Origin: Amphibalanus amphitrite
Taxonomy: Eukaryota > Arthropoda > Thecostraca > Balanomorpha > Balanidae
Length of the DNA: 64,000 nt
Direction: 5' to 3'
NCBI RefSeq assembly: GCF_019059575.1
Contig: NW_024883024.1
Span: forward strand, 84,497-148,496
Below are positions 3,062-31,300 of this stretch, in pieces. A model generated the notes under the pieces. The model saw only the letters and a list, made by a program, of their open reading frames with translations. It ran no database searches and was not told the DNA's origin. Within the stretch, counting starts at the first letter, position 1. The number at the start of each line of letters is the position of its first letter. Made by a program: the position numbers and the translations under genes.

Positions 3062-3205
3062 ATGGAACGAGCAAACGTCCAAGAAGCGTTTCTTTCTGAA
3101 CGTGTAAAGTACTTATGTTCTTGCGGCTTTTTGAAGCCAATTTACCGAGTTTATTTCTGTCGGCACTGCCAGAAGATAAGATGTGGAAACTGCGTCTCGC
3201 AGGAG
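3062..3205 (+). CDS. DCTN4: DCTN4 exon 1
   Basis: 48 codons from [10 protein letters not shown] to CVSQE; donor GAG|GTAATT, phase 0. It holds the first six zinc-ligand cysteines. Confidence 0.88.
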
Positions 3206-6200
3206 GTAATTTATCTAAATTGTTGATGTTGGTGTGTGAACGGATGACAGGTTCACTTCGCACAGATTTATTGCATATACCCACGAGCTTAGATTATGAG
3301 CATTGGCATCAGCCTGTGTCTTGCATTCTTCCGCAGATGGACTCGACGTACTGCAGTGGCTGCTTGGAGATGATGTCCAATGTGGAGGCGGGGCTGAAAA
3401 AGAACCGCTGCTCCACATGCAAGGACTGCCCCTCCTGTGGCCACACCCTCTCCACCAGGGCCACCAGCATCCAGGTGTGGAACGTAGCAGCATGCCCGAA
3501 CGGAACTTCTAAGCCAGCTGAAAGTTTGATTACCTACCTCAGTTGGGCAAACTAGACTTTTGGAATCAAAATATGGAGGCATCAATAATTTGATTCTGGT
3601 GGGAGGAGCCATGACCAAATATGGGCATGGAATCAATTTTTTGATTCATTTGGGTACACTTTTGACTTCAAATGAATCGTTACGGTTGAAAAAAGGCCCA
3701 TGACGGTGAGATTTTTCTTTTAAAAGGCAGAAAAATGTGGTAGGTTTGCAAAAAGTGTTACCTCAAAGCTAAGAAATTGTCCCTTTGGCCTTGTGAATGG
3801 GAAAAAGACAGAGCCACTGTCCATCACGTAAAAGCTGTTTTGAGGAAATCACACTGTATGTTATTTGTGTATCATGAATCACATACTAACCAATCAGCAT
3901 TTGTGTAAAATGGCAAAATGAAATTTTTAAACCCCTAATTATCATTGTTGTAGTGCTTTTATATTATTTATATGGTTTTTACCTGTTGCTTCAGTTTTTG
4001 TATTCTTGACATTTAAAAATTGTGAATTGTTATCAAATGTAGTGAAGGTAAAGTACAACAATGCTATAGGTATCAGTTGTGGTGCTGAGGATATCACTAA
4101 ATGAGAATAATAGCAAGATAAATGCTGTATTCTTGCAAGTCATTGTTGCCTATCTGTTAACATTACCTGTGAATCAAAATAATGATTAGCCAGCTGATGG
4201 GGAATCAATATTATGATTATCTGTTTAAAGTGAATCAATTCCTTGATTGTCTTTCACTACCTATAGAATTCAAATTGTTATGAAAGGAGCAATATTATTT
4301 TGCTTAGGAGATAGTTCAAGCATTTCTGTTCAAGATCAGGCATGCTCCTTCTTGAAACACTCTCTTATTTTTATGTGATTGGTAAGTTAGAAATGGTCTG
4401 CATTTATGCCCAAAAGGAATCAATCTTTTGATGCCTCCATATTTTGATTCCAAAGGTCTAGTTTGCCCAACTGACCTAACTGAGATTCTTACCAGGGTCA
4501 TTGGTAGTCAGCTGCTCATTCAGCAGTTTTCTACTTTGTGAAAATTGCCCTTTGCGGACGCCCGTGAAAACAGGGCGCCGGAGGGCATATTAGTCATGTG
4601 ACATTTTTAACTTGTCCCCCTCCGTGGGCCTTCTACATGCTAAATGTCACGTGTGAATTTCATGATCCTTGATCAAATCGCCCCAGGCGCCCTGTTTTCA
4701 CCGTCGTCCCCCTTTGCACATCAGCCTCAAAGTTAAAAGTAGAGCTGAACTGTGTGATCACTAATCAGGGACCATAAGTTGATGGCAAGTTGTAGAAACA
4801 GTTGTATTCATTCCTCTGAAAAATACAATGTATACCACAGAATTTCATGAAAAGAAGAATGACTTATCTCATGCCACTGATCACTGTCACTGCTCAGCAA
4901 ATGGCACTGCAGATAACTTTTAGATTGCTATTCTGACCAGACCTCATGAAAGTAAGTTTTTTTCTAGCCTAAGCAACGCACCGTTTTTTGTTTTTTCCAT
5001 TTTTATTTTATACAAGCTGAAGAAGAAACTTCCTGATAAGAGTAAATGAAGCTGACCTATCAGACATTTCAAATGATGCAAATAGTTGGCATCATTGACT
5101 ATGAGGCTAAACAACAGAGGAGATGACTTGCATGAACAATCAATGAATGGAATGAAAGTAGCCATTACATCAAATCGATATTATTTTTATTTTTGTATGT
5201 GTAGTTAAATTCACTGGAGCGCCCATTGAGTAGCAATATTTCCTAGCCTATCATCACTGATGCATTCACAGAATACGTTCTGTTCCCCAGGCCCCAAGTA
5301 TGGAGGATCCGACCAAGATCGTGCCCAGGAAGGTCTACTACGTGGCCTGCGGGTTCTGTCGCTGGACATCGCGCGACAGCAAGCTGCCCGACCAGAACGT
5401 CGGTCAGTAGCTCACTAGAATGTCTGTATTGTTTGTCAGAATGTTGGTCAGTAGCTCACTAGAATGTCAGTATTATTGTCAGACCGTTGGTCAGTAGCCC
5501 ACTAGAATGTCAGTATAGTCAGTCAGCACGTCGGTCAGTAGCTCACTAGAATGTCAGTATTGTTAGAACGTTGATCAGTAGCTCACTAGATCGTCGGTAT
5601 TATAGTCAGAATGTCGGTCAGTATCGCACTAGAATGTCAGTATTGTTAGTCAGAACGTCGGTCAGTAGCTCACTAGAATGTCAGTATTATAGTCAGAACG
5701 TCGGTCATTAGTTCACTAGATCGTCAGTATTATAGTCAGAACGTCGGTCAGCAGCTCACTAGATCGTCGGTATTATAGTCAGAATGTCGGTCAGTAGCTC
5801 ACTAGAATGTCAGTATTGTCAGGCAGAACGCCGGTCAGTATTGCACTAGAATGTCAGTATTGTTAGAACGTTGATCAGTAGCTCACTAGATCGTCGGTAT
5901 TATAGTCAGAATGTCGGTCAGTATCGCACTAGAATGTCAGTATTGTTAGTCAGAACGTCGGTCAGTAGCTCACTAGAATGTCAGTATTATAGTCAGAACG
6001 TCGGTCATTAGCTCATTAGATCGTCAGTATTATAGTCAGAATGTCGGTCATTAGCTCACCAGAATGTCTGTATTGTTAGTCAGAATGTCGGTCAGTATTA
6101 CTCCAGGACGTCATTTAATTGCGGAGCACGTTTGTCGCTATCTGATCGTCGTCGGTCGATACCGAAGCATATAATCGCCGATATTGTAATAAAACTCTGG

Positions 6201-9200
6201 TAGCCAGCAGATCAGGCGGCCGCCGGGGTGAGCTATCGCACCAATTTGCGATATTGATTATAATAGACATGCGTCAAGGTCTGTCAGCATTTGGCCAGTT
6301 TGTCAGCACCCTGCTAAGCATCTCAATCCTCATCCACAAATCATCTATAAAATCATACATGAGGTGCCTGGGCACGTTCGGCTAATTATGGTGAGAGAAC
6401 GAACTGGAACGTTAGTGGAAACAAGCTCCAAAAGTGGGAAGATAAGCTCGAGAATTTATATGTAAGCAGTGTGCTGTTTGTGATCATAACTTGTGAAGTA
6501 ACCCTCGAAGAATACCTTGCGTTATTGCGCAAAGTTGCACTGACTCCTGTATGTTCTGAGGTGCGACGTTTGTTTTGCGGCAGCGTCTGGCACGTGGACG
6601 GAGTTTGAGAACCCCGACTCGGAGCGGCTGACGACCCTCTCCGACAACTACCGGGCGCTGGCCGTGCTGGAACGATCCGCGGCGGAGCAGGGCAAATACG
6701 GCCGGCAGGATAAGTGAGTTGGGGGAGCAGGGGGACCGGAGCGGTCTGCGGCCGAGCAGGGCAAATGCGGCCGGCAGGATAAGTGAGTGGGGGGGGGGGG
6801 GTAGGACTGGAGCGGTCCGAGGGGGGAAGAACAGGGCAAATACGTCCGGCAGGATAAGTGAGTGGTGGGGGGGGGGGGGGCAGGGCAAATACGGCCGGCA
6901 GGATAAGTGAGTTGGGGGGGGGGGGGGGGGGGGGCTTGAGCGGTGCTAGAGGGAGAAGGGCAAATACGGGCCGGCAGGATAAGTGAGTGGGACCGGGAGG
7001 GGGAGGACTGGAGCCGGGTCCGCGGCGGAGCAGGGCAAATACGGCCGGCAGGATAAGTGAGTGTGAGTGGGGGGGGGGGAGGAAGGGCGACTGGAGCGGT
7101 CTGCGGTGGAGCAGGGCAAATACCAAATACGGCCGGCAGGATAAGTGAGTGTGAGTGGGGGTGGGGAGGGGATGATATCCTACAAATGCCAGGAAGTCTG
7201 GTACTGTGATGGTAGACGATAGACGTCATATAGAGACGTCGTATAGATAGACAAGACGATAGACTGTAAGTCACTTGGCAGGCAGGTACTGCCTGGAGCT
7301 AAATTCTTTGAATAAGCTGGTCAGGATGGAGGTGAGGGAATGTAATGCACTTCATGCTTCTCTGTGGTGTGCTCATCACCTCATGTTGCTCCATAAAGCC
7401 TGCTGTATGACGCTCCTCGCTCTCTTTTCCCCATCAGGACGCGCCGTTTTCTGGAGGGTAAGGGCAAGTTTGGCGCGATGGCGCGCGCCACCCGCAAACA
7501 GGCCGGCCTGCCGCCGTCCCGCTCCCTGGTTACCGCCAAGGTGAGTGTGGGTGGGACGACTCCAAAGTGACCGGGGCCGGGCTGCGTTATACCGTGACAG
7601 GAGAGCTGCTTGGGGTCTGGGGGTGTGGGTGGGACGATTCGACCAAAGTGCTTAGTGTCCTGGGCCTGGCTGCATTATACGTGACAACAGAGCTACGTAC
7701 GGGGGGGGGGGGGGGAGCAGATGAAGGGTTTGGCTCTGACAACCTACTGAGGCTGGTTTAAGGGAATGGAGGCGCTGTACAACAGCTTGCTGTATGATGG
7801 GGCTTCCTCCTGTGCTAGGGTCCGGCTGCTCGGAGTTGGTCCTAGAGATGGGTCCTGAGCTGTTTAAATCTGTTAATAGGAATGGATGCTGCTACTTGCT
7901 ACTGGTATGATATATCAAGCGAAAATGGCATGGTGTGTGAAGATAGTATTGATAACTTTGTCTTGTCCATCTTTCACTCACCCATATTGTGACCATACCA
8001 GGACCTGGACGCCAAAAGCCTGACGGAGATGGCAGAGCCGTCTCTTCCACTGAGCCTACGAGTACAATAACCCCTCCTCCTCCCCCAGGACTTGGACGCT
8101 AAAAGCCTGACGTAGATGGCAGAGCCGTCTCTTCCACTGAGCCTACGAGTACAATAACCCCTCCTCCTCCCCCAGGACTTGGACGCTAAAAGCCTGACGT
8201 AGATGGCAGAGCCGTCTCTTCCACTGAGCCTACGAGTACAATAACCGCTCCCTCCCATCCCCCAGGACCTGGACGCCAAAAGCCTGAAGGAGATGGCGGC
8301 GCAGCCCTTTGACGAGGCCGATGACGCGCTGCCGGAGTCGGCCTTCACCGAGCCGCTAGTGCTGACATCTGGTGAGAGACACGACAACTATCCCGCTACA
8401 AACGTAGCTGAATTCACGTAGTAAAAATCGTAGACACTTTACGATGGTTGTTATCAGTCTCGACGCTAATTTAAGTGTTTGGTAGAAATCGTGATATTAT
8501 TATTGATACGTACTTAACGTACATAGGTATTTCTATTAATGCGTATGACTTTCTTATGTGTATTTTTTAAGATATTGCATTTCTGTGTCTTGTGATCTCA
8601 ATACCCAAGTCGATTCATCCCAGAGTCATTCAGTATTTACTGTCACCATTGAATTGACGTGTCTGTCTCTGTAACAACCGGTAACAACACACCCGTATTC
8701 CTCCCCCAGTGACGACGCTAGCCCAGCGTCTGGCGTTCCCCCGGCAGTAATGTCTGCCTGTTTCCCCAGTGACGACGCTGGACCAGCGGCTGGCGTTCCC
8801 CCAGTGATGTGTATCTGTCTGTCTATAAGTTCCCCTACTGACGTCTATCTGTTCCCCAGTGACGACGCTGGACCAGCGTCTGGCGTTCCCCCGGTAGTAA
8901 TGTCTGTCTGTCTGTCTCTCCCCCAGTAGTAATGTCTGTCTCTCTGTCTATCTGTCCCCCCAGTGACGACGCTGGACCAGCGTCTGTCGTCCCCCCGGCA
9001 GTAATGTCTGCCTGTTTCCCCAGTGACGACGCTGGACCAGCGTCTGGCGTTCCCGGAGCTGCAGACTGAGCGCCAGGATCGTCTCCAGCCGCAGCACAAG
9101 CACGCCGAAATGAAGCGCTCCATGCGCTGCCGGTATTGCGACCACAACCTCAGCAAGCCAGAGTACAGCTGCATCAGCATCAAGTTCAGGATCCAGCTCA

Positions 9201-12200
9201 ACGCCTAGTGGGTAGCAGTCCTGGTTTCGGATGATATGCTCTGTGCTATCTCTTAGTTTCCTGTGGAAATAAATATCTTCGGGCCAAACACATTTCTAGG
9301 ATCTAAATTTGATTCTTTGATTTCACTTCAGTTTCCGACGTAGATCTCGAAGTGCAAACGAATTCGGATAGGCTCGTCGAACTACACTGACCCCACGTGA
9401 CCTCAGACTTAATCCGGCCGACAGCCGACCTCTGAGCTCTGACCTTTTTTCTGCCCCCAGCTACCACGTGCCGGACGTGAAGATTCTGTCTGTCGGCGAG
9501 CTGCTGGTCGGACAGCAGACTGAGACCGTGCTGACCTTCAGCAACCCCACCATCTACCCGGTAAGAATTCAGTAGTCGGCAATCTAACCCAGTGCTGACT
9601 CTCAGCAACCCCACCATCAACCCGGTGAGAATTCAGTAGTCAGCAATCTAACCTAGTGCTGACCTTCAGCGACCCCACCATCTACCCGGTAAGAATTCAA
9701 CAGTCGGCAACCTAGCATAGTGCTGACTCTCAGCAACCCCACCATCTACCCGGTAAGAATTCAACAGTCGGCAATCTAACCTAGTGCTGACTCTCAGCAA
9801 CCCCGCCATATACCCAGTAAGGATTGAGCTGTCAGCATCCTATGTACCTATGTGTTATTCATCAACTAAGGTCATTAGCACCTCAATAATGAATCGAACA
9901 ATGACCCTTAGCAGCTGCATCACCGCGTGTGCTAAGTGAAAAGTATTTGTGTTCTTGCGTAAGAATGATGATAATGGATAAATTATAGGTACTAAAGCGG
10001 TGCCTAGCCTTACCGTTGTGTCTTCGTCAAGTGTCAGATGTCACTGAAAATGACACTGACTCCGTGTCATCACTCCGTCAGATGACAATTCGTCTGGAGA
10101 AGTACCGTGAGCCGGACGAGGAGGAACTGCAGGAGAACCCTGATCCCGAGCACAAGGAGAGTTCTCTGCTGAGACCAGTCACACTGCAGAGGTGAGAATC
10201 CACACAGCTCTCTGCTGAGATCAGTGACACTGCAGAGGTGAGAACCGCGATCCGGAGCAGAAGGAGAGTTCTCTGCTGAGACCAGTCACCCTGCAGAGGT
10301 GAGAACTGAGAACCCACACAGTTCTCTGCTGAGACTTGCGATACTACAGAGGTGAGAACCTGGACCCCAAACACAAGGAGAGTTCTATGCTGAGACCAGT
10401 CACACTGCAGAGGTGAGAACCCGCACAGCTCTCTGTTGAGCCTGAATGGTTACCTTACAGAGGTAAGTACTCACACAGTTCTCTGCTGAGACTTGCGATA
10501 CTACAGAGGCGAGAACCCGGACCGTGAGCACAAGGAGAGTTCTTTGCTGAGACCAATGACACTGCAGGGGTGAGAATCCACACAGTTCTCTGCTGAGACC
10601 AGTCACACTGCAGAGGTGAGAATCCACACAGTTCTCTGCTGAGACCAGTCACACTGCAAAGGTGAGAATTCACATGGTTCTCTGCTGAGACCGTTCACGC
10701 CGTAGAGGTGAGAATTCACATGGTTCTCTGCTGAGACCGTTCACGCCGTAGAGGTGAGAATTCACACGGTTTACGGAACTCTGACCTTCGCTGCAGGGTG
10801 GAGCCGCGCGTTCAGCAGACTGACTAGCCCATTCTGCCCTCCGCGCCCGCTGAGCTCTGTATACCTCTGTTGAAATCTACTGATCTCCGTAGACCTCTGT
10901 TGACATCCACTGACCTATGATGACTTCTGTTGACCTATGCCTGACCTCCACTGACCTCTGTTGATACTATGTTTGCGCCTGTTGACCTTCACTGAACTCT
11001 ATTGACCCCTTTTGACCCCTGTTTACCCCTTTTGACCTCTATTGACCTCTGTTGACCTCTGTTGACCTCCCCTCAGAGTGGAGCCGGACATCCAGCAGAC
11101 TGCTGAGCTCACGCTGCCCTCCGCTGACTCCTGTTGACCCCTATTGACCTCTATTGACCTCTGTTGCCCTCTCTCCAGAGTGGAGCCGGACATTCAGCAG
11201 ACTGCTGAGCTCACGCTGCCCGCCGCCGAGGTGGTGCTGGCGCCCCGGGACGACTCGGCCGAGTTTGACGACGCACCGAGCTCCTCCGAGTTCCGAGACG
11301 ACCCCAGGTCAGAGGTCATCTGAGGCTCTCGTGCGGGGTCAGAGAGGTCATTTACGGCCGTATTTGGGCCATGTGGTGCCATACATAGTTCCGGGATGAC
11401 CCCACGTCAGGTCAATTAAGGATATCGTGGGGGTCAGAGCGGTCAGAAGCGTCGTCTAGATCAGGGACGCTCAGATCACTGCCGATCAGAGGTATCATAC
11501 AGATCTGCAGGCTGTCTCGGGAGGTCAGGGAGGCTATAATATAGGAGGTCGTCTTGTTCAGGGCTGATCTTAGGTTAGGCTGATCTCATGTTAGGCTGAT
11601 CTCAGGTTACATTGGGTCAAAAAGAGCCATTGACTTATGTAATGGGGAGGTCGCGAAATTGACCTGACCTTAGGTCATCGATATCAAAATTCCGAGATAT
11701 ACAAATTGTAGCTACTAATGACCTAATAATATCCTGCGACTTTCAAAGGCCTCCGACATCTACTGTAGCTCTGGCACGGTGACAAAGTTGCAAAAAAGTG
11801 ACTTGAGGTTGGGTCATTCAAAGTGACCTGGTGACCTGACCTTAAAAGGTAGGAGGTTCAAACTTGCACACCATGTGTAAAATTGATGAGGTTATAGTCA
11901 TATCAAATTTCGCGGCGCTACGCGCCGCGGTTTTCCCGCTATTCGCGAAAAACCTCAGGGGGGGGCGGATATCCGCCCCCCCCCCGTCGGTGCGAGGGTT
12001 AACGAATATTTCAGGCTAGTTAGGATACTCACTGTAGGTAATTCGAGGCCTTCGATACATTTTTTGTTGTCTGAGATCTGAGATATAATGGCCTCGGATA
12101 AATCTCCTCTAATTCTCCTCCCCCAGTGCGTTGGTGTGGTGGCAGGCTAACTGGGTCCGTCGAGTCCCCCCCCCCCCCTATAACACCCCCTCCACTCCCC

Positions 12201-12228
12201 CAGTGTGGTGGTGTCTCAGAGTCACCTT

Positions 12229-12307
<79 letters not shown>

Positions 12308-12765
12308 CTCAGCGTCGTCGTGTGGCGCCAGGCCAACAAGGTGGCTCTCCGTGTCCCCCTATAACACCCCCCCCCCTCCGCTCCCCCAGTGTGGTGGTGT
12401 GGCGTCAGGCCAACAACAAGGTGGCTCTCCGTGTCCCCCTATAACACCCCCCCCCCCGCTCCCCCCAGTGTGGTGGTGTGGCGCCAGGCCAACAAGGTGG
12501 CTCTCCGTGTCACCCTATAACACCCCCCCCCCTCCGCTCCCCCAGCGTCGTCGTGTGGCGCCAGGCCAACAAGGTGGCTCTCCGTGTGCCCGTCACACCC
12601 CTGCCGTCTGCCGGCGGCGGCCGCTGCTCCGCTGCCCTGCTACTCCACTACAGCTACACAAACACAATCGTCACTGGCGAGAGCAAGCAGCCGCAGACGC
12701 TCAAACTGCGCGCACGGCTCGTGGTCGATCTTGGGCAGGTCACCGCCGCAGAGGGCAGTGGTTAG
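3062..12765 (+). CDS. DCTN4: Dynactin subunit 4 (p62), complete 11-exon gene
   Basis: DCTN4 is the p62 subunit of the pointed-end complex of dynactin, the cofactor that couples dynein to cargo. Eleven coding exons splice in frame with GT/AG ends: 3062-3205, 3337-3474, 5291-5402, 6584-6713, 7438-7540, 8266-8371, 9024-9207, 9461-9560, 10082-10191, 11179-11307 and 12546-12765. They total 1476 nt (491 residues), slightly longer than the roughly 460 residues of vertebrate DCTN4. The N-terminal zinc-binding region has CxC at 19/21, CxxC at 33/36, 41/44, 54/57, 73/76, 79/82 and 114/117. Recognisable family motifs include [20 protein letters not shown] and [11 protein letters not shown]. The start was chosen because the conserved cysteine block begins 18 residues later; an upstream in-frame ATG at 3032 would add 10 residues. 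From exon 3 on, the introns carry arrays of duplicated exon edges. Confidence 0.93.
3337..3474 (+). CDS. DCTN4: DCTN4 exon 2
   Basis: 46 codons; acceptor TTCCGCAG, donor CCAG|GTGTGG, phase 0 at both ends. It encodes [13 protein letters not shown], then the cysteine cluster [20 protein letters not shown], a DCTN4 signature. Confidence 0.93.
3540..4473. mobile_element. hAT-like non-autonomous element in DCTN4 intron 2
   Basis: Terminal inverted repeats of about 50 bp begin CAGTTGGGCAAACTAG and end with the complement. The flanks are ACCTACCT on the left and ACCTAACT on the right, an 8-bp target duplication with one mismatch, as hAT elements make. The interior is AT-rich, has no transposase frame, and carries many AATCA/TGATT words. 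Confidence 0.82.
4550..4722. mobile_element. Short foldback element
   Basis: GGACGCCCGTGAAAACAGGG near 4557 pairs with GGCGCCCTGTTTTCACCGTC near 4688, giving a hairpin of about 170 bp. This looks like a MITE; the target duplication is unclear. Confidence 0.6.
5291..5402 (+). CDS. DCTN4: DCTN4 exon 3
   Basis: Acceptor TGTTCCCCAG; encodes [17 protein letters not shown] followed by [14 protein letters not shown]. The donor is CGTCG|GTCAGT, phase 1. The donor region is the seed of a long tandem array. Confidence 0.93.
5393..6105 (+). repeat. Tandem array copying the exon 3 donor
   Basis: About 16 units of roughly 43 bp. Each contains the last 8-10 bases of exon 3 joined to its 5' splice site (AGAACGTCG|GTCAGTAG and variants), then CTCACTAGAATGTCAGTATT. 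The first unit is the true exon-intron boundary. Confidence 0.92.
6584..6713 (+). CDS. DCTN4: DCTN4 exon 4
   Basis: Acceptor TTTTGCGGCAG. The phase-1 G of exon 3 plus CG TCT GGC gives [16 protein letters not shown], matching the ASGGW...ENP stretch of other DCTN4 proteins. The donor is GATAA|GTGAGT, phase 2. Confidence 0.9.
6678..7155 (+). repeat. Tandem array copying the exon 4 end and donor
   Basis: Seven occurrences of CCGGCAGGATAAGTGAGT, the last bases of exon 4 plus the 5' splice site, are preceded by GGCAAATACG and separated by G-runs and variable spacers. The first is the real boundary. The long proline-rich frames on the opposite strand come from this repeat. Confidence 0.93.
7438..7540 (+). 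CDS. DCTN4: DCTN4 exon 5
   Basis: Acceptor TCCCCATCAG. Encodes (K)[20 protein letters not shown] and continues to LVTAK; donor GCCAAG|GTGAGT, phase 0. Just downstream, intron sequence around GGGTGGGACGA is itself duplicated (7553 and 7630). Confidence 0.88.
7995..8265 (+). repeat. Three pseudo-copies of the exon 6 acceptor edge
   Basis: CCAG|GACTTGGACGCTAAAAGC-type copies of the exon 6 start occur near 8001, 8087 and 8177, each about 90 bp, upstream of the real exon at 8266. The second and third carry an in-frame TAG after AGCCTGACG, and the first reaches TAA after 22 codons, so none could serve as a working exon. Confidence 0.9.
8266..8371 (+). CDS. DCTN4: DCTN4 exon 6
   Basis: Acceptor CATCCCCCAG. 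Encodes [20 protein letters not shown] and runs to PLVLTS; donor TCTG|GTGAGA, phase 1. This is the only member of the local array whose frame stays open. Confidence 0.92.
8700..9023 (+). repeat. Pseudo-copies of the exon 7 acceptor edge
   Basis: CCCAG|TGACGACGCTGGACC plus AGCGTCTGGCGTTCC recurs near 8710, 8770, 8861 and 8964 before the real exon at 9024. Spacers contain TGTCTGTCTG runs. Confidence 0.92.
9024..9207 (+). CDS. DCTN4: DCTN4 exon 7
   Basis: Acceptor TGTTTCCCCAG. The G from exon 6 restores [18 protein letters not shown]. Contains [20 protein letters not shown], the best-conserved DCTN4 motif. Donor GCCTA|GTGGGT, phase 2. Confidence 0.94.
9461..9560 (+). CDS. DCTN4: DCTN4 exon 8
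   Basis: Acceptor TTTCTGCCCCCAG. Continues [20 protein letters not shown] and runs to FSNPTIYP; donor CCG|GTAAGA, phase 0. Corresponds to the NYIPEVRI...LTNP region of other family members. Confidence 0.92.
9530..9822 (+). repeat. Tandem array copying the exon 8 end and donor
   Basis: Five units of about 62 bp, each with AGCAACCCCACCATCTACCC|GGTAAGAATTC or a variant, then CAACCTAGTGCTGA-type spacer. The first is real; the others keep a usable donor consensus. Confidence 0.93.
10082..10191 (+). CDS. DCTN4: DCTN4 exon 9
   Basis: Acceptor CTCCGTCAG. Encodes [20 protein letters not shown] and runs to RPVTLQ; donor CAGAG|GTGAGA, phase 2. Confidence 0.85.
10155..10775 (+). repeat. Tandem array copying the exon 9 end and donor
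   Basis: A dozen or so irregular units of 40-80 bp, each with TTCTCTGCTGAGACCAGTCA, then CACTGCAGAG|GTGAGAATCC. Copies near 10258, 10373 and 10540 retain more exon sequence (CACAAGGAGAG), so unit length varies. Confidence 0.92.
10790..11178 (+). repeat. Pseudo-copies of the exon 10 acceptor edge plus TGACCTCTGT repeat
   Basis: GTGGAGCCG...CAGCAGACTG preceded by an AG acceptor occurs at 10798 and 11077 before the true exon at 11179. The DNA between is a degenerate TTGACCTCTGT tandem repeat. Confidence 0.88.
11179..11307 (+). CDS. DCTN4: DCTN4 exon 10
   Basis: Acceptor CCTCTCTCCAG. Encodes [20 protein letters not shown] and runs to SSSEFRDDP; donor CCCAG|GTCAGA, phase 2. The EFDD...FRDDP stretch matches the AEYDE...FQDDP region of the family. 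Confidence 0.93.
11563..12002. mobile_element. Right part of a GGTCA-rich TTAA element in DCTN4 intron 10
   Basis: Ends GTGCGAGGGTTAA at 12002, like the other TTAA-flanked elements here, and contains the shared word ATTCGCGAAAAACCT and TGACCTGACCT runs. No matching left end is seen, so it is truncated or decayed. Confidence 0.6.
12120..12545 (+). repeat. Pseudo-copies of the exon 11 acceptor edge
   Basis: Up to five copies (near 12127, 12202, 12312, 12390, 12469) of CCCAG|TGTGGTGGTGTGGCG and GCCAGGCCAACAAGGTGG, then CTATAACACCC and a C-run, precede the real exon at 12546. The first two are decayed. Confidence 0.92.
12232..12305. repeat. (AC)n microsatellite
   Basis: Pure AC dinucleotide run of about 70 bases inside the exon 11 acceptor array. 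Confidence 0.97.
12546..12765 (+). CDS. DCTN4: DCTN4 exon 11, terminal
   Basis: Acceptor GCTCCCCCAG. AG plus C restores [19 protein letters not shown], then [16 protein letters not shown] and [10 protein letters not shown], ending with TAG at 12763-12765. Matches the ...FRKANKVGIFIKVTP C-terminus of the family. Confidence 0.94.
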
Positions 12766-13755: not shown

Positions 13756-14049
13756 GTGATTGCCTGGCTTTTGGTCGCAGGCTGCCTTCTTAAGACTTTT
13801 GTTATCGTGGCGCAATGTAGCTGTGCTTTGAAAGCAAGTTTGGAAACTTCCACGTATCTGCTTACTGCTATGTGGATACCAGGCACTTTATCCCGTGAAG
13901 GAGTGATTGCCTGGCTTTTGGTCGCAGGCTGCCTTCTTAAGACTTTTGTTATCGTGGCGCAATGTAGCTGTGCTTTGAAAGCAAGTTTGGAAACTTCCAC
14001 GTATCTGCTTACTGCTATGTGGATACCAGGCACTTTATCCCGTGAAAAG
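13756..14049. repeat. 147-bp exact-looking tandem duplication
   Basis: Copies at 13756-13902 and 13903-14049, identical by eye except at the last few bases. The unit is a multiple of three, so frames stay open on both strands across it. I do not recognise the peptides. Confidence 0.92.
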
Positions 14050-14087: not shown

Positions 14088-14542
14088 TGAGCTTCCAGCC
14101 TGTAAGGGACGTGTTCCGGTGAATGTGACTGACTGGCTTTTGTTACCTTCTTTAGGATTAGGGGCATCTTCTTTGAAGCCCCATAAAAACCGCACGTTGC
14201 ACTCTAAATGCACACTGTTCTTGTTGCGCGTAAATATAACTAAGCACGCACTATAAGGTGTTTTCAACACGTGGAAGTCTAATGGAGAAGACGACTGGGC
14301 GAGCTGAGAGTTCTGTTTACTCAGACAGTGTTGATCCGTCAGCGTCAGCGTAAAGCAGACCTTTAGTGATATCGTGATACCGGGCCGATCCGCCGACTGA
14401 CGGACACTGCTCTATCGTGATATGAACAAGGGAATCGGTTCCACCATGCGCCCGTCTCCCATACGATTGCCAGTCCCCGTAGACCGAGTTTTGCTCACGA
14501 TAGCAGCAGCTTTTAGGGACTAGTTGTTTACAAGACAATAAC

Positions 14543-15188
14543 ACCAGTCTGGGGACTACAGCGATTCACAGGACAGTAACATCAGTCCCTGGAGACTGCA
14601 GTTATACACCGTACAATATTTCCAGTAACTGGAGACTGCAGCTGTTAAAAGACAGTAACACCGGCTTGGAGACTACAGTTATACACAGGACAGTAACACC
14701 AGTTTGGAGACTGCAGTTATACACAGGACAGTAACACCAGCTTGGAGACTGCAGTTATACACAGGACAGTAGCACCAGTTTGGAGACTGCAGTTATACAT
14801 AGGACAGTAGCACCAGTTTGGAGACTGCAGTTATACACAGGACAGTAGCACCAGTTTGGAGACTGCAGTTATACACAGGACAGTAGCACCAGTTTGGAGA
14901 CTGCAGTTATACACAGGAAAGAAGCACCAGTTTGGAGACTGCAGTTATACATAGGACAGTAGCACCAGTCATTGGAGACTGCAGTTATGCACAGGAAAGT
15001 AGCACCAGTTTGGAGACTGCAGTTATGCATAGAACAGTAGCACCAGTTTGGAGACTGCAGTTATACACAGGACAGTAGCACCAGTTTGGAGACTGCAGTT
15101 ATACATAGGACAGTAGCACCAGTTTGGAGACTGCAGTTATACACAGGACAGTAGCACCAGTTTGGAGACTGCAGTTATACACAGGAAA
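14543..15188. repeat. 38-bp minisatellite
   Basis: About 17 units with core GTTTGGAGACTGCAGTTATA and ACACAGGACAGTAGCACCA. Units on the left are more divergent than those on the right. Confidence 0.95.
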
Positions 15189-15198
15189 GTCCCAGTAA

Positions 15199-15391: not shown

Positions 15392-16067
15392 TGTTGGGGA
15401 GCGACACACGGCCGCCCGGCCGGCAGTCGGCGGCGGGCGCCGGCCGCGAATCCTGCAGCTCTGCCGGTGATGACGCGGCGGCTGCGGCGGCCGCTGATTG
15501 GTCGGTGGGCGCCCAGCCCCCCTATATAAGGCGGTGCATCGCCGGCAGCAGTCACCTATCCGTGCTTCTATCCTCAGGATACTGAAATCCTTCTCCTCCA
15601 AGCCGCAACCCTCCTCCGGGCTGGACAGTCAACTTTATCTCATGCGGGCTGCTCCCTTGGAGCGGCACCGCTGCTCCTGAGGGAGCGCACCCCGTAGCCG
15701 GGTGCAGTGAGTGCCTTGGGGCTGGGTGGCCTGTCCTCTGGACGGGCTCAGCCCCGGCGACTCACTAGGGTGCCTGCCCAGACCAATGTCTCCCCCTAAT
15801 TCCTATCATCCTTCCGGCTCTGCAATGGTCTTTTCGACCGAAAGGGCCTAACCCAACAAAACAAAAAAACAAACGGCAGCAGTCAGACGCTGAGCGGTGC
15901 GCTCGGCGGTCGGAGCTCCGGGGCGGCAGCGAGGAGGGAAAGCTGACAAGAGGTCCAATGGGATAATCGGGGGTGACTGCGGATTGCGCTGGCGTGTACC
16001 GTACGATCATTGTAAATATATTGATTAGCTGAACCGAGGTGTTTGCCGGTGGATGCGCGTCCGAACA
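15392..16067 (+). repeat. 5' LTR, split by a SINE
   Basis: 345 bp of LTR sequence plus a 331-bp insertion. It carries an inverted CCAAT motif (GATTGG at 15496) and a TATA box (TATATAAG at 15523). The SINE enters about 30 bp past the TATA box, close to the expected transcription start, so this LTR is probably disabled as a promoter. Confidence 0.92.
15555..15873 (+). mobile_element. SINE-like insertion in the 5' LTR
   Basis: A 319-bp insertion bounded by the 12-bp duplication CGGCAGCAGTCA (15543-15554 and 15874-15885). The uninterrupted sequence is present in the 3' LTR. It ends in an A-rich tail (CCCAACAAAACAAAAAAAC). The head contains TCCTCAGGA. Related copies lie at 33.16-33.65 kb, 21.5 kb and 26.6 kb. 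No clear tRNA-type A and B boxes are visible. Confidence 0.9.
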
Positions 16068-16087: not shown

Positions 16088-16186
16088 TGTTCGGAAACAA
16101 GCGGACGCGCATTCATTGGCTTGCATCACCCCTAAAGTAAATTTCAATCTAATTTATTTTAATTGGCCTTAGTACAGCAACGTAAG

Positions 16187-17404
16187 ATGGAGAGAGAATT
16201 CCTACTTTTGACTAACTTTGAGAATTTCACGGGGGAGAACAAACAGGCATGGGGTCAATGGTACCGACGATTCCGGGCAAAGACGGCTGCGTTTTCCGAA
16301 GAAAAACGGCTGCAGGGCCTGCTCAGCCTTCTGCAGGGCGGCGCCCTGGATTACTTCGCCTCGCTGTCAGAGGATGTCCAAGGAAATCTCCAACAAACAG
16401 TAGCCGCATTGGAAGCCCGCTTTGGCACGGCAAAGAACGCAATGCAGGCACAAGCTGAACTGGCAAGCATCCGACAGCAGCCCGGCGAGGCGACTCGCGA
16501 CTTCGCGGACAGGGTGCGCCAGGCCAGCCGGGAGGCGTACCCGGGGGCGGCAGCCGGTGACCCGTCCGTGGAGGCGACTATCGTCAGCCGCTTCGTGTGC
16601 GGCCTCCGCGACGAACAGCTGCGGATGCGGGTGCTGACAAAGGACCCGGCCAGCCTCATGGAGGCCATGGATGTCGCCGCTAAATTCCAACAACAGCAGG
16701 ACGCACTCCGAGCGATGCGCCCTCCCAACGAGAGCGGTGAGGCGTTGGCAGTCCGAGACCGGGACGCGCCGGGCACAGATCGCCTAGACGCGCTGGAGAG
16801 GGGCATAGGGGACCTGCAGCGCGCCCTGCAGCGCCTTGACACAACGGGGCACGGGGCGGGGGCGAGGAACCCCCAACGAGGGCGACCGAACCCGAACAGG
16901 CAGGGCCCGGGGCGACGCTGTTTCCATTGCAATAGCCCGGACCACCTGATCCGCAACTGTCCGGCGCGGCAGGCGCAGGCCAACGAGCGGGCGGGGCGGC
17001 CCTTTCCACCCGGTTACCAGCAGGCGGGCCTGGAGTGGGCGGAACGCCCCCGTGGTCCGCCTGAGGAGGCCGGCGGATGGGCGCCGTTCTGTCCCGGGTG
17101 CAGCCGTGGGGGACAGCGATGGGCGGGGTGCCCGCCTGCCCCCGCGACTGCAGCCATAGGCACGCCTGATATCCCGCCGATGGAGGGCCCCGCCACACAC
17201 ACGGGACACTGGCAGCGGGGAAACACACAGGCAGCGGGGTGCGACCGTGAAGGGCAGCGGAGGGTGGGTTACCCACCTGCCCCCTACGGTACACCCGCCG
17301 CGGGACAGCCCGCACGCCAGGGACAAGGGTGCCCTCCCACACCCGCGGTCGTGCATAGGGACACTCACGTAGCTGCGGTGGGTCAGCCACAGGGAAACGA
17401 GTGA
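16187..17404 (+). CDS. gag: Retrotransposon Gag polyprotein
   Basis: 405 codons from ATG at 16187 to TGA at 17402-17404. Gag forms the virus-like particle shell and binds element RNA. The N-terminal half (FENFTGENKQAWGQWYRRF...) has the feel of Ty3/gypsy capsid domains. A CCHC zinc knuckle follows at residues 245-258 (C245, C248, H253, C258), flanked by Arg/Gly/Pro-rich sequence. The remaining 145 residues are proline-, glycine- and cysteine-rich, unusually long for a region after the knuckle. The start was chosen at the first ATG; an open stretch without ATG precedes it. The frame ends in a -1 frameshift signal that leads into protease. Confidence 0.88.
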   Translation: MEREFLLLTNFENFTGENKQAWGQWYRRFRAKTAAFSEEKRLQGLLSLLQGGALDYFASLSEDVQGNLQQTVAALEARFGTAKNAMQAQAELASIRQQPGEATRDFADRVRQASREAYPGAAAGDPSVEATIVSRFVCGLRDEQLRMRVLTKDPASLMEAMDVAAKFQQQQDALRAMRPPNESGEALAVRDRDAPGTDRLDALERGIGDLQRALQRLDTTGHGAGARNPQRGRPNPNRQGPGRRCFHCNSPDHLIRNCPARQAQANERAGRPFPPGYQQAGLEWAERPRGPPEEAGGWAPFCPGCSRGGQRWAGCPPAPATAAIGTPDIPPMEGPATHTGHWQRGNTQAAGCDREGQRRVGYPPAPYGTPAAGQPARQGQGCPPTPAVVHRDTHVAAVGQPQGNE

Positions 17405-17434
17405 GTACCGGTGCGACGGGGCCAGTACCGGTAC
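17392..17434 (+). promoter_or_regulatory. -1 programmed ribosomal frameshift signal
   Basis: The heptamer GGGAAAC at 17392-17398 is in the correct register with the gag frame (CAG GGA AAC), one codon before the gag stop. Six nucleotides later, GTACCGGT (17405-17412) pairs with ACCGGTAC (17427-17434), an 8-bp stem with a 14-nt loop. A -1 slip enters exactly the protease frame. Slippery site, spacer and structure together match known retroviral signals. Confidence 0.85.
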
Positions 17435-17833
17435 GTAATCCATCAGAGTCCCACAGCGCGGGGTTGACGGCGTCAGCCGTAGAGGTGCGGGTCGCGGGTC
17501 ACCAGGCTTGGGCTCTGGTGGATACCGGGGCCGACTTTTCCATGATGAGGGGGGATTTCTGGGACACGATCAGGGGAAGTTTGCACCTCCAGTCCTCACC
17601 AAGCACCCGGCTCGCAAAGGGGGCCGGAGGTAACGAGCTGCAGATGCTGGGAGTGGTGCGTAATTTGGGGCTCGAGATACGAGATAAGATAGTCGTCTGC
17701 CCGGAAGTGGAGATTGTTGGGGGTCTGCTGTATGATATGGTGCTCGGAAGGGACTTCTGCTGCCGCGAGAAAACAGTTATCGACGACGAGAACGGAGTCA
17801 TCAGGCTCGGAAGCTTGACGCTCCCCCTACCGT
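17399..17833 (+). CDS. pol: Retrotransposon protease, 5' part of pol
   Basis: Aspartic protease region read in the -1 frame after gag. The catalytic motif is LVDTGADFSMM with the DTG Asp codon at 17521, followed by a hydrophobic flap-like region and the MVLGRDF helix typical of retropepsins. The frame enters the 10.5-kb insertion at TA 17833-17834 and, read on, stops at 17886 inside the inserted DNA. The downstream pol part resumes in the same frame at 28319. Confidence 0.85.
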
Positions 17834-18205
17834 ACAGTAGGTCTATTAAAAAAGTCCCCAGCACCAGTGGGCGCTGCCTTCGCTGAGCCGAACCCCCGTC
17901 TGCCCGTCCCATATCGCGCCGGGCTCAGGTCAGGTAGGGTCAGCGGGACCGCTCGGTCCGGCCCGCGGGCGGTGGACGGGCGGCCGGTAACGCTTTCCGC
18001 CAGCCAGCTGTAGAATCCAACAAACGAGACGGCCACCACTCAGCGCAGTGAAACCGGTGTTAAAGAATGGCAGTAGATGTTCATGGCCACAATGATTATG
18101 AGATAGTCATTGTTAGCCCGTGCCCCACAGGAATGCCTAGACTTTCACGCCCTGTTGGAGGGGAAATGGGGATTGAGCATCATTCTTATAACTCAGCTTT
18201 GGGCA

Positions 18206-26905: not shown

Positions 26906-28318
26906 GGATCTAGCACCCTTGACCCTTCCTTATACTGAACGTATCTCAGGCTGTTAAATCTCCTAAGCGTTTTTTTTCTCGACATCGTCAAGGTGTCATT
27001 AATAGAAATATGAAATCCGGGAGAATAAATTAAATATAGAAATTGTGACCAACAGAACATTATCAGTTGCGTTAAACATACTAGTAAGCATGATCACACA
27101 CCCAGCTTATATATGAGCCATGTCATAATCATTTTTGATAGACATGCTTAAGTTATGAAATTATCTAAAGTGTTTGTAAAGTTCCACGATACGAATCTAA
27201 TATCCTGCTATGCATCATGACCATTTCTGGTCAAGTCATGTCTTTGAACATAGGCCAAATTTTTCAAATGACCTTTATAGATCAACTTTTGATTCATTCG
27301 AAGCGTTTTTTTTTTATAAGAGGAACACGAGGCTGGTAAAATTAATTTCAAGCAAGTTTTAAGCTAAAAACTTTTAAGTGTTTGTGGAAAAGCAATTGGT
27401 TTTCTCATAATACCGATGGTGGCAGTTGCTGTTATTTACGTGCTAAGCCGTTCGCCTTTATTAAATCTGACAATATTATTCAGACATAGCGGTAAACGAG
27501 ATGATTGTTGTGTTAGGTTAGGCTCGGTCGATTTCAGAGTGGGAAGGATGACAGGAATTAGGGGGAGACAGGGGGCCTGGGCGAGAGTCCTGGACCTCAT
27601 GCTCCGCTGGGGCCGAGCCCATCACGTGGGTTGGATTGCCCTGACACATGGATAGCCCTGGGCGGTGTTTCCCGGCCCTGCGTTGCAGCACGCTGCGCTG
27701 CGCTGCTGCATTGTTGCGGCGGTTGACATGAATTCGGCTCCACGCTAGCGTTGCGAGCTCCCGAGTCTGTTGATTTTTCCATGGAAACTGGAAACCCAAT
27801 GCACCGGTGCGCGCAACGCACCCTGTCCAAGCAAAATTTTACCACCGATGACCTCTGATGACATGACCTCTGGCTCTGACCCGATCTAAAATTGGCTGAA
27901 GTATATTTCTTCTTTTTGCTACTTTTGACGCTACTTCGAATGCCACTTAAATGCCCAAAGCTGAGTTATAAGAATGATGCTCAATCCCCATTTTCCCTCC
28001 AACAGTGCGTGCATAGGCATTCCTTTGGGGCACGGGCTAACAATGACTTTCTCATAATCATTGTGGCCATGAACATCTACTGCCATTCTTCAACACCGGT
28101 TTCGCTGCGCTGAGCGGCGGCCGTCCCGTTTGTTGGATTCTACAGCTGGCTGGCGGAAAGCGTTACCGGCCGCCCGTCCACCGCCCGCGGGCCGGACCGA
28201 GCGGTCCCGCTGACCCTATCTGACCTGAGCCCGGCGCGATATGGGACAGGCAGACGGGGGTTCGGCTCAGCGAAGGCAGCGCCCACTGGTGCCGGGGACT
28301 TTTTTAATAGACCTACTG

Positions 28319-31300
28319 TACTACACAGAAGTGAGGCCGCAGCGCGCACGGGTCATGCTCACGCAGACGGTGGTAGTTCCTCCCAGGTCAGCAATGTGCG
28401 TCTCCGCCCGTCTGTTGAGCCTAACGGGGCGGTCGGTGCCACTGTTGGAAGGCGAGGGCGTCATCGAACCCAGCGGCACCTTAACGAGAGAGGACCTGCT
28501 GATGCCGCGTGAGGTCGTGAGGATCGCAGCAGGTGGCTGCGTGCCCGTCCAACTCACCAATCCAGGCTTCGAAGAGGCAACTCTGCTGAGGGGCAGTGAC
28601 GTGGGCACGTTCTTCGCGTTCTCCCCTGTCCCTGATGGGGAGTTCGAGCTGTGTGAGGGACAAGAGGCCCGGGTCAACGCGGTCGCGGAGGATGGGGAGC
28701 CGGACACGGACGAGTGTGGGAGTGCGGGAGAGCACCCCGATGTAGACCTCAGCGAGTGTGACCTCTCCCCGTCCGGCAAGACGCGACTACAGAAGCCGCT
28801 CACCGAGTACAAAGACATCTTCAGCCGTCACGACGGCGACATCGGACACACGCACCTCGTCGAACACCAGATCGACACAGGCGATGCTCGGCCGATCAGG
28901 CAGCCGCCTCGCCGAATCCCGGTGTCGGTCCGTGCCCAGATCGAGCGCCAGAAGGAACAGATGCTTCGTGACGGGATCATCGAACCAAGTATGAGCCCGT
29001 GGTCGTCTCCAGTGGTGTTGGCCCGAAAGAAGGACGGCACGTTCCGGTTCTGCGTGGACCTGCGAGCCGTAAACGGGGTCACAAAGGGATTCGCTCACCC
29101 CCTACCACGCATCGACAGCACACTTGACAGCTTGGCCGGCGCCTCAAAGTTCTCCACCTTGGACCTCGCTAGCGGATACTGGCAGGTCGGCATCACACCC
29201 GAAGACCGTGAAAAAACTGCATTCAGCACCGGCAGTGGCCTGCACCAGTTCCGAGTGATGGCAATGGGACTGAAGAACGCCAGCGGAACGTTCCAGCGGC
29301 TGATGGAGCTGGTCCTCGCTGGGATGGACGCCACCACCTGTCTGGTCTACCTGGATGACATCGTGCTGTTCAACCGGTCCGAGGATGACCATCTCAGCAC
29401 TCTTCGAGACGTGTTCCAGCGGATCAGAGAAGCGGGACTCAAACTGAAACCCAAGAAGTGTGTCCTGGCCAGGAAAGAAGTCACTTTCCTCGGACACCGC
29501 GTCTCCAAGGATGGGGTGAAACCAGACCCACGCAACGTCGAGAAGGTGCTGTCGTGGAAAGAACCCGCAACAAGCGATGAGATGTGCAGCTTTCTCGGGC
29601 TATGTGGGTACTACGCTCGGTTCATCGAACACTACACAGAAGTCAGCCGGCCGCTGCGGGTGGCTTCTCAAGCCCCCGGCAAGCTGAAGTGGACTGACGA
29701 GATGCGGACCTCCTTCGGCCGACTGAAGCAGGCTCTTAGCTCTCCACCGCTCTTGGCGCTGCCCACGTTCCGGGGCACGTTCGTACTCTACACAGACGCG
29801 TGCAACACCTCCGTGGGGGCGGTGCTCACCGAGCGGGTCGACGGCGATGAGCGGGTCATCGCGTACGACAGCAAAGTGCTCTCGAAAGCCGAGACACGAT
29901 GGCCGACGTACGATAAGGAGCTGTGGGCAGTTGTACACGCCATTCGGAGGTTCCGGCAATACACGGTCGGCGCGCCGTTCCTTGTGGTCACTGACCATCG
30001 ACCCCTGGCCAATATCCCAAAGTCCATAGCAGTGGAGCGTGATGGGACAGGACGACGTGGGCGGTGGGCGGTGGAGTTGAGCTCGTTCGAGTTCGAAGTT
30101 CAGGTGCGCGCGGGTTGCGCCCACGGGAACGCCGACGCCATGTCACGCCAGCCCCCGGGACCCACACCGTCGGTCGTATGCATGACACGGTCAGAGCCGG
30201 CGGGCAGCGAGGCTCCGCCCGCATGCCGACCCCCGGTCGATGAGCTTGGGCATCGCGAGCGGCCAAAGGCTGCGAGCACTGGCTTGGTGAGGCGCTGCGC
30301 ACAAGTCTGCGCGCGGGCGGCGGCCCTCCTGACTGGCACCGTGCGGGCCGTCTTTCGGTCAGCGGGACCAAACCGACGGCTACAAAGCACCCCAACGCCC
30401 TCGCACAGGGTCACAGTCGAGCTCCAAGGACCCGGGACGGGTCGTTGCGGGGGCGGGTCGCCCAGCAGCGGCTGCGTTACGGACGTGATGACCTCGAGGG
30501 TGCAGGGAACGGAAAGCGCGAGCCACTGCGAGGGCGGGAGGCCCAGCAGCGGTAGCGCAGGCGAGCCCGGCACGCAGACCGCCCAGGCCGACGTGGAGGT
30601 TGATTCTGCCAGTAAAATTCTATTGGTGACGGGCGAGGACGCACGCGCCTTCGCCCACACGGGTGTTGACGGCGACGCTGGTGATGCCAGCCCGCTGGAG
30701 CAGCGGAGCGCCATGCAGAGGGCGCAAGAGGAGAGCTCACCACTCAACTATGCCCGACGGTGTATCGGCCAGCAGACACCCTTCGACATCCCTATGCTGG
30801 AGAAGTGGGGTCAGATCCTGGGATCAGGAGGTCACCATGTTCGGATGGTGGACGGTCTCGTCGGCGTCGACACGACGAGCGGGTTCAGGGTGGCAGTGCC
30901 CCCCTCTCTGCGCACCCGGGTGATGCAGCTGGCGCACGAACCACCAACGAGCGGACACATGGGCCACCGACGCACCACGCTCAGGGTGAAAAGAAACTTC
31001 GTGTGGCCCGGGATGTACAAGGACATCAGGGAATACTGCAAGACGTGCATCCTCTGCCAGAGGCGAAACAAACCCACACCGTCGCCAAGAGCCCCGATGC
31101 AGACTGAGCTGGCCACACATCCTTTCGAGCGCATAGCCGTCGACATCACGGAGATGGCAACGTCGGCGAAGGGGAACAGGTACGCACTAGTCGTGATGGA
31201 CTATTTCTCTAAGTACGTGCGTGTATATCCCATGCCCGACCAGAAGACCGAGACGATCCTCGATGGCGTACTGGACTGGGTGTACGACTTCGGCGTGCCG

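Follow-up and report, generated by a model that had tools for sequence, protein, structure and literature searches.

Tandem arrays of exon edges and their splice sites at eight junctions of the dynactin subunit 4 gene of the barnacle Amphibalanus amphitrite

Eight of the 20 exon-intron junctions in the gene for dynactin subunit 4 (DCTN4, dynactin p62) of A. amphitrite are accompanied by extra copies, or decoys, of the exon edge together with its splice site. These arrays are genuine and provide a striking case of a structure that is already known, the "mirages" of amphioxus, defined as tandem repeats spanning exon-intron boundaries, which were named in Adh3 and also found in globin genes (PMC3087553). 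It is likely that they are mirage-type minisatellites, resulting from tandem duplications that favour exon edges and are tolerated through splicing at the innermost site, with DCTN4 as an extreme case. What is new is the barnacle host, the density of the arrays within one gene, and an excess of duplicated acceptors in unrelated genes. The kind itself is not, although a sequence-only reading of this DNA had known of no gene with so many affected junctions: amphioxus mirages have been described in the papers cited here (PMC3087553, PMC3902484).

The window, that is, the whole stretch of 64,000 nucleotides that was analysed, forms part of contig C1527 in an assembly of 808 Mb. The DCTN4 coding region was modelled at 3062..12765 on the forward strand and consists of 11 exons, which give an open frame of 491 amino acids and define 10 introns, all 10 with GT-AG ends. 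Exons 1 to 4 lie at 3062-3205, 3337-3474, 5291-5402, and 6584-6713, exons 5 to 8 at 7438-7540, 8266-8371, 9024-9207, and 9461-9560, and exons 9 to 11 at 10082-10191, 11179-11307, and 12546-12765 (all on the forward strand). The best database match of the window protein is a dynactin subunit 4-like protein of A. amphitrite (99% identical over the full length), and it also matched the solved structure of dynactin subunit 4 (9b7j_K, E 1.1e-98). Two DCTN4 matches are listed in the assembly, namely, the window on C1527 and a second copy on contig C1002, whose exon model produces a protein that is identical, letter for letter, to the database entry P0001 (dynactin subunit 4-like).

An ungapped search of the window, in which each junction was represented by 15 + 15 bases and at least 22/30 had to match, detected extra copies at exactly eight junctions, donors 3, 4, 8, and 9 and acceptors 6, 7, 10, and 11, and at 0 of the 12 others. 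This is precisely the set named in the sequence-only reading. A profile listing, from which matches beyond the intron of the respective array and some of the weaker matches inside that intron were dropped by hand (C1002 included), contained 16, 6, 4, and 11 decoys at donors 3, 4, 8, and 9, and 3, 4, 2, and 5 decoys at acceptors 6, 7, 10, and 11. The exon-derived part of the array units measures about 10-59 bases, as judged from the array limits and the exon model, with the limits at acceptor 7 set by eye. Both figures agree well with the 2-16 copies and 10-60 exon bases reported earlier. In a gapped search 9/20 window junctions passed, the ninth being donor 10, which has one diverged decoy (11387..11427, forward strand) that keeps the GT but carries a changed last exon base; it is also present in C1002.

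The arrays, all on the forward strand, have unrelated sequences and unit lengths at the eight junctions, in accordance with the earlier proposal of an independent origin at each of them. The donor-3 array (5393..6097) comprises 16 decoys, spaced by 40-44 bases, of the last approximately 10 exon bases plus the donor, and the donor-4 array (6669..7166) has 6 decoys, spaced by 49-88 bases, that contain the last approximately 45 exon bases, the donor, and a G-run. At donor 8 (9528..9825) there are 4 decoys at a spacing of exactly 64 bases that include the last approximately 33 exon bases, and at donor 9 (10133..10771, two repeat-finder rows merged) there are 11 decoys, spaced by 46-61 bases, with the last approximately 59 exon bases. 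Among the acceptors, the array of exon 6 (7998..8297) contains 3 decoys with the first approximately 32 exon bases, spaced by 87-90 bases, and that of exon 7 (8696..9049) has 4 decoys with the first approximately 26 exon bases, spaced by 60-104 bases. The acceptor-10 decoys (10783..11226) are located at 10797 and 11077 and the real site at 11179, corresponding to spacings of 102-280 bases, and a 10-base repeat occupies positions 10851-11069 amid them. The acceptor-11 array (12113..12591) includes 5 decoys with the first approximately 46 exon bases at spacings of 77-109 bases, and an AC run lies within it at 12232-12305. A genome search with the donor-3 and donor-9 arrays retrieved only the two DCTN4 copies among the best candidates scored. 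For these two arrays, the idea of a dispersed satellite was therefore rejected, with the same scope of the best candidates listed, which also answers a doubt raised at the outset.

The C1002 copy possesses decoys at the same eight junctions, mostly fewer and in part degenerate: 3, 2, 3, and 6 at donors 3, 4, 8, and 9, and 1, 3, 1, and 3 at acceptors 6, 7, 10, and 11 in the profile listing. Its donor-8 decoys are diverged and spaced by 38, 33, and 105 bases, as compared to the 64-base unit of the window. When C1002 was searched with the window queries in the ungapped mode, more than one site was found solely at donors 4 and 9 and acceptors 7 and 11. A gapped search with its own junctions returned 7/20 (donors 3, 4, 8, 9, and 10 and acceptors 7 and 11); acceptor 6 fell short of the required 7 matching bases to either side of the junction, and the decoy of acceptor 10 was missed because it is 404 bases away and the search spanned 350. 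Since both copies carry decoys at these eight junctions but in different numbers, it is scarcely credible that the arrays are an artefact of assembling long-read repeats. A single assembly stands behind both copies, but these are on two contigs that are 79-94% identical in their larger aligned blocks, differ in decoy copy numbers, and both maintain an intact coding frame. To the extent that contigs assembled separately can tell, the arrays are genuine, in keeping with the sequence-only reading.

C1002 is colinear with the window across the gene and its flanks, the coding regions diverge by 5.2%, and 54/249 four-fold sites differ. From this sequence comparison, the C1002 copy is probably the other allele of the window gene. 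The two were treated as alleles given the two matches, the colinear flanks, and a divergence that falls within the range of alleles of another barnacle, Balanus improvisus, for which values of 5.5% (range 2-11) and of about 20% between alleles have been published (PMC8270832). The C1002 gene may instead be a paralogue, considering that eight other contig pairs are closer to each other (mean identity of 90-96%) than the DCTN4 pair (79-94% by larger block), but the DCTN4 divergence is inside the range reported for barnacle alleles in that same source.

Decoys in both copies have largely retained their splice signals. GT or AG was found in 68/73 decoys, corresponding to 46/51 donors with GT and 22/22 acceptors with AG, so that the claim of a conserved splice consensus stands. 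Of the 68 intact decoys, none would keep the reading frame on use, and the exon-derived parts, as had also been noted, no longer code. The splice dinucleotides deviate from the majority in 5/146 cells, as compared to 79/733 cells in nearby exon columns, and the 5 changes contrast with about 20 for random column pairs drawn from these arrays (P 0.001-0.006); the decoys share ancestry and are not independent, so the significance of these tests is overstated. The low variation may reflect constraint or, alternatively, repeated copying from the real edge. These data bear on selection for splice-site redundancy, according to which spare sites would aid splicing or cushion the effect of mutations in a highly polymorphic species. 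The intact GT or AG and the constancy of the dinucleotides are as this explanation would predict, but none of the decoys is a working spare, since the frame is restored by none of the usable ones; furthermore, the decoy numbers differ between the two gene copies, shared ancestry inflates the statistics, and most of the junctions surveyed in other genes (see below) have no decoy. We consider this explanation quite unlikely. Use of the innermost splice sites in the C1002 copy predicts exactly the protein P0001, a result obtained from DNA and the database protein.

Whether exon edges are preferred depends on the level at which the question is asked. There is no enrichment at the level of positions in DCTN4, where 8/20 junctions are affected and repeats cover 35% of the intron 30-mers. 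This coverage, together with further arrays just 3' of the gene at 13756-14046 and 14530-15190, is compatible with chance, in that DCTN4 might be located in a minisatellite-rich region and have short introns, so that edges are caught without any preference. However, all eight arrays with long units touch an exon edge, for which random placement gave P of about 4e-6 to 9e-5, or 5e-5 to 1e-3 when two short-period interior arrays were added. The arrays in this test were merged and typed by hand from repeat-finder and profile rows; in the automatic table, before merging, 7 arrays of the window copy count as edge arrays and 4 as interior, as against 2 and 4 for C1002, where pieces of edge arrays are split off or end just short of the exon. 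An interior duplicate is also present in DCTN4 intron 5. GC content was discarded as the cause of the preference, as affected and unaffected edges do not differ clearly in this respect (P 0.24 on the exon side and P 0.09 on the intron side). As the placement test is post hoc, the gene having been picked for its arrays, other genes were surveyed.

The survey covered introns of chaperonin (CCT), myosin, and cullin genes that were not chosen for repeats. The introns were identified through domain matches, from which their junctions were inferred, and joined by splice score and frame. There were 92 joined introns, 85 of which were kept (7 with a join score <3 were dropped), and merging of haplotypes left 58 distinct introns. 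Three methods were tried, and the strong acceptor result stems from the third, the gapped search. The ungapped survey (66 introns) revealed extra copies at 5/132 junctions versus 8% of interior windows, which would be in line with chance; this interior 8% consists mostly of a few long interior arrays. Array placement by repeat finder was also weak, with 3/7 arrays spanning an edge (P 0.05-0.15, or 0.28 with all periods from 14 bases), and P reached 0.001-0.005 solely if edge-adjacent arrays were counted.

In the gapped search at a score of 18, matches were found at 9/85 acceptors, 0/84 donors, and 47/1099 interior positions, and shuffled introns produced 0/169 at a score of 16 or 18 and 1/169 at 14. 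With one haplotype per intron, 6/58 acceptors have a local duplicate, whereas 0.85 would be expected if they behaved like the interiors of these introns (P 3e-6), and the number increases to 7/58 if either haplotype counts. Matches were most frequent close to the acceptor, with 6, 9, and 7 of 58 at distances of 0, 10, and 20 bases on its upstream side, and dropped to 1-4 of 53-58 at 30-100 bases. No survey donor (0/57) has a local duplicate, and the count was 0 at every offset tried (53-58 scored). Similarity between polypyrimidine tracts was rejected as the source of the acceptor matches, since comparisons across introns gave a match in just 1/3306. The nine acceptor alignments represent local duplicates, offset by 36 to 139 bases, and 3/9 contain only 7-8 exon bases. 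Acceptor matches scoring <18 were dropped, including L026 (16), for which a wider-window alignment stops short of the junction, and an acceptor-like repeat at the chaperonin locus L015 was left uncounted because no exon was recognized there by eye. The survey introns also contain 13 interior duplicate clusters in 47 kb, some of which are parts of edge arrays.

The small survey shows that tandem duplications strike acceptors more than intron interiors in this barnacle, and it provides initial evidence that tandem duplication in this genome favours exon edges, most of all acceptors. Chance capture of edges is therefore unlikely, given the acceptor counts of 6 versus 0.85 from their own interiors and 6/58 versus 1/3306 across introns, although the ungapped result and the placement values of P 0.05-0.28 speak for it. 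As the survey donors gave 0/57, the preference seen there is one for acceptors, whereas in DCTN4 donors are affected as often as acceptors; DCTN4 also exceeds the survey in frequency (9/20 versus 6/115 junctions, P 2e-5). The suggestion of a recurrent process in the sequence-only reading holds in so far as edges are favoured and acceptors of unrelated genes are involved, but not for survey donors, and its question of whether exon-edge arrays occur in other genes of this genome has the same divided answer.

Mirage-type minisatellites would account for these observations as follows. Local tandem duplication of about 35-100 bases would copy a segment straddling an exon edge, junction by junction, and most arrays would then grow and shrink like ordinary minisatellites. 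Extra copies on the intron side would be spliced out with the intron, and the copy nearest to the other end of the exon would stay in use, most simply via exon definition. A duplication at an edge would therefore be nearly neutral, whereas one inside an exon would not, and the preference for edges would most probably stem from a mutational bias around the splice site. More tentatively, and with somewhat less than even confidence, barnacle exon edges, above all the 3' splice site, may be a genome-wide hotspot of tandem duplication, at which decoys arise independently in each haplotype and arrays come and go within the species. If so, the variants from which exon-edge shifts and intron gain could start would be visible as standing variation.

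Clear parallels emerge with the amphioxus mirages, which were also reported in the troponin C and PGBD5 genes (PMC3902484). According to these studies, mirages affect 5' or 3' exon ends, have many copies with AG or GT, and leave splicing undisturbed; they occur in the globin genes BflGb6 and BflGb9, with BflGb6 haplotypes of 6 and 3 units, and the Adh3 mirage shows somatic length instability (PMC3087553, PMC3902484). DCTN4 shares with them the tandem copies of a boundary-spanning segment, the involvement of both exon ends (4 donors and 4 acceptors), the retention of AG or GT in many but not all copies (68/73), and copy-number differences between haplotypes, if the window and C1002 copies are alleles. 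These four are the mirage features on which DCTN4 gave a clear result. The differences are that the host is a barnacle, an arthropod, that an acceptor excess over intron interiors was measured, and that eight junctions of one gene are involved, each with at least 2 decoys in the window (the number of Adh3 junctions is outside this comparison). No arthropod arrays at exon-intron boundaries were named in the literature searched, i.e., titles and the starts of abstracts of open-licence papers.

Boundary repeats are also found in the human genome. The minisatellite of IFI6 (6-16) has a donor-like site in each repeat unit; its units are short, and a single junction of this one gene is involved. In segmental duplications, human genes have internal tandem repeats at exon-intron boundaries, with minisatellite units spanning the edge, that can create novel introns and alternative transcripts (PMC2812944); unlike in these cases, the C1002 DCTN4 protein is as predicted from the innermost sites.

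Another proposal of the sequence-only reading was slippage seeded at AGGT-like sites, which could be regarded as an initial step towards the gain of introns by tandem duplication (Rogers model). The duplications do include splice signals, and donors 9 and 10 read AG/GT (the slash marking the exon edge), but donors 3, 4, and 8 read CG/GT, AA/GT, and CG/GT, the unaffected donors 1, 2, and 5 are themselves AG/GT, and half of the arrays sit at acceptors. Nor was a new intron noticed in either gene copy. An AGGT that could supply both new splice sites is found at donor 9 alone among donors 3, 4, 8, and 9, and we regard this mechanism as very improbable. In potato, a duplicated segment crosses an intron-exon boundary in the RdRp intron gain (PMC4974935), and in Drosophila, likewise an arthropod, seven introns were ascribed to tandem duplication at proto-splice sites, with no arrays described in the available part of that report (PMC2891723). 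In these systems, as in the Rogers model, new introns are the outcome, whereas the DCTN4 arrays sit in existing introns, and their bearing on intron gain by tandem duplication is indirect.

Within the sources cited here, descriptions of boundary arrays concern some human genes and a small number of genes in amphioxus. Amphioxus is also a very polymorphic animal, and a second, distant animal of this type with eight arrays in one gene and an acceptor excess suggests a general process. Splice-site duplications that segregate would make it possible to measure their origin, the choice of the spliceosome between real and decoy sites, and the rate at which gene structure changes.

Differences between haplotypes are not confined to DCTN4. 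A chaperonin acceptor decoy is seen in just one of the two haplotypes. The array-bearing edges of the myosin loci L028/L029 did not enter the 58-intron sample, since the domain model failed to match their exons. One myosin donor outside the sample has an array with a 32-base unit in one haplotype, whereas the other haplotype shows just one decoy, at a distance of 124 bases; at a later exon, the acceptor is accompanied by four decoys in one haplotype but by one in the other. Most simply, exon edges have been duplicated repeatedly, with haplotypes differing at one and the same edge. At the L021 acceptor, the start of the unit and the exon sequence that follows the unit share ATG, a single case that would fit microhomology.

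The two DCTN4 copies of the assembly differ in intron 5, where the copy on C1002, the second DCTN4-bearing contig and probably the other allele, carries an insertion of more than 2 kb that is absent from the window copy. Because the end of this insertion matches window positions 15552-15855 at 94%, it looks like a mobile element carried by one of the DCTN4 copies. Just 3' of the gene lie a perfect tandem duplication of 147 bases (13756-14046) and a 17-copy array with a 38-base unit (14530-15190), and the repeat-rich stretch therefore extends beyond DCTN4. A pair of adjoining frames was identified at 16163-17886, one of which has gag-like matches (PNMA and Retrotrans_gag) that fall below the curated cut-offs, while the other has an aspartyl protease match above its curated cut-off. 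An open frame of 1322 aa at 28241-32209 combines reverse transcriptase, RNase H, and integrase domains and belongs to a Ty3/gypsy-like element.

Among the loci retrieved in the survey of chaperonin, myosin, and cullin genes, a repeat of 20 bases, with the sequence GGGGCACCACAGGCCTGTCA or one closely similar to it, is common to three, namely, L018 (1321-1931), L025 (2770-3428), and the myosin locus L029 (5699-6036), the genes of which are either unrelated or haplotype-paired. In contrast to the edge arrays, this repeat looks like a dispersed satellite.

The database model of DCTN4 from the gooseneck barnacle Pollicipes pollicipes (P0002) is flagged LOW QUALITY, and its frame is lost just past the start of exon 11, the position of an array in A. 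amphitrite; perhaps the P. pollicipes gene has an array at this exon start as well.
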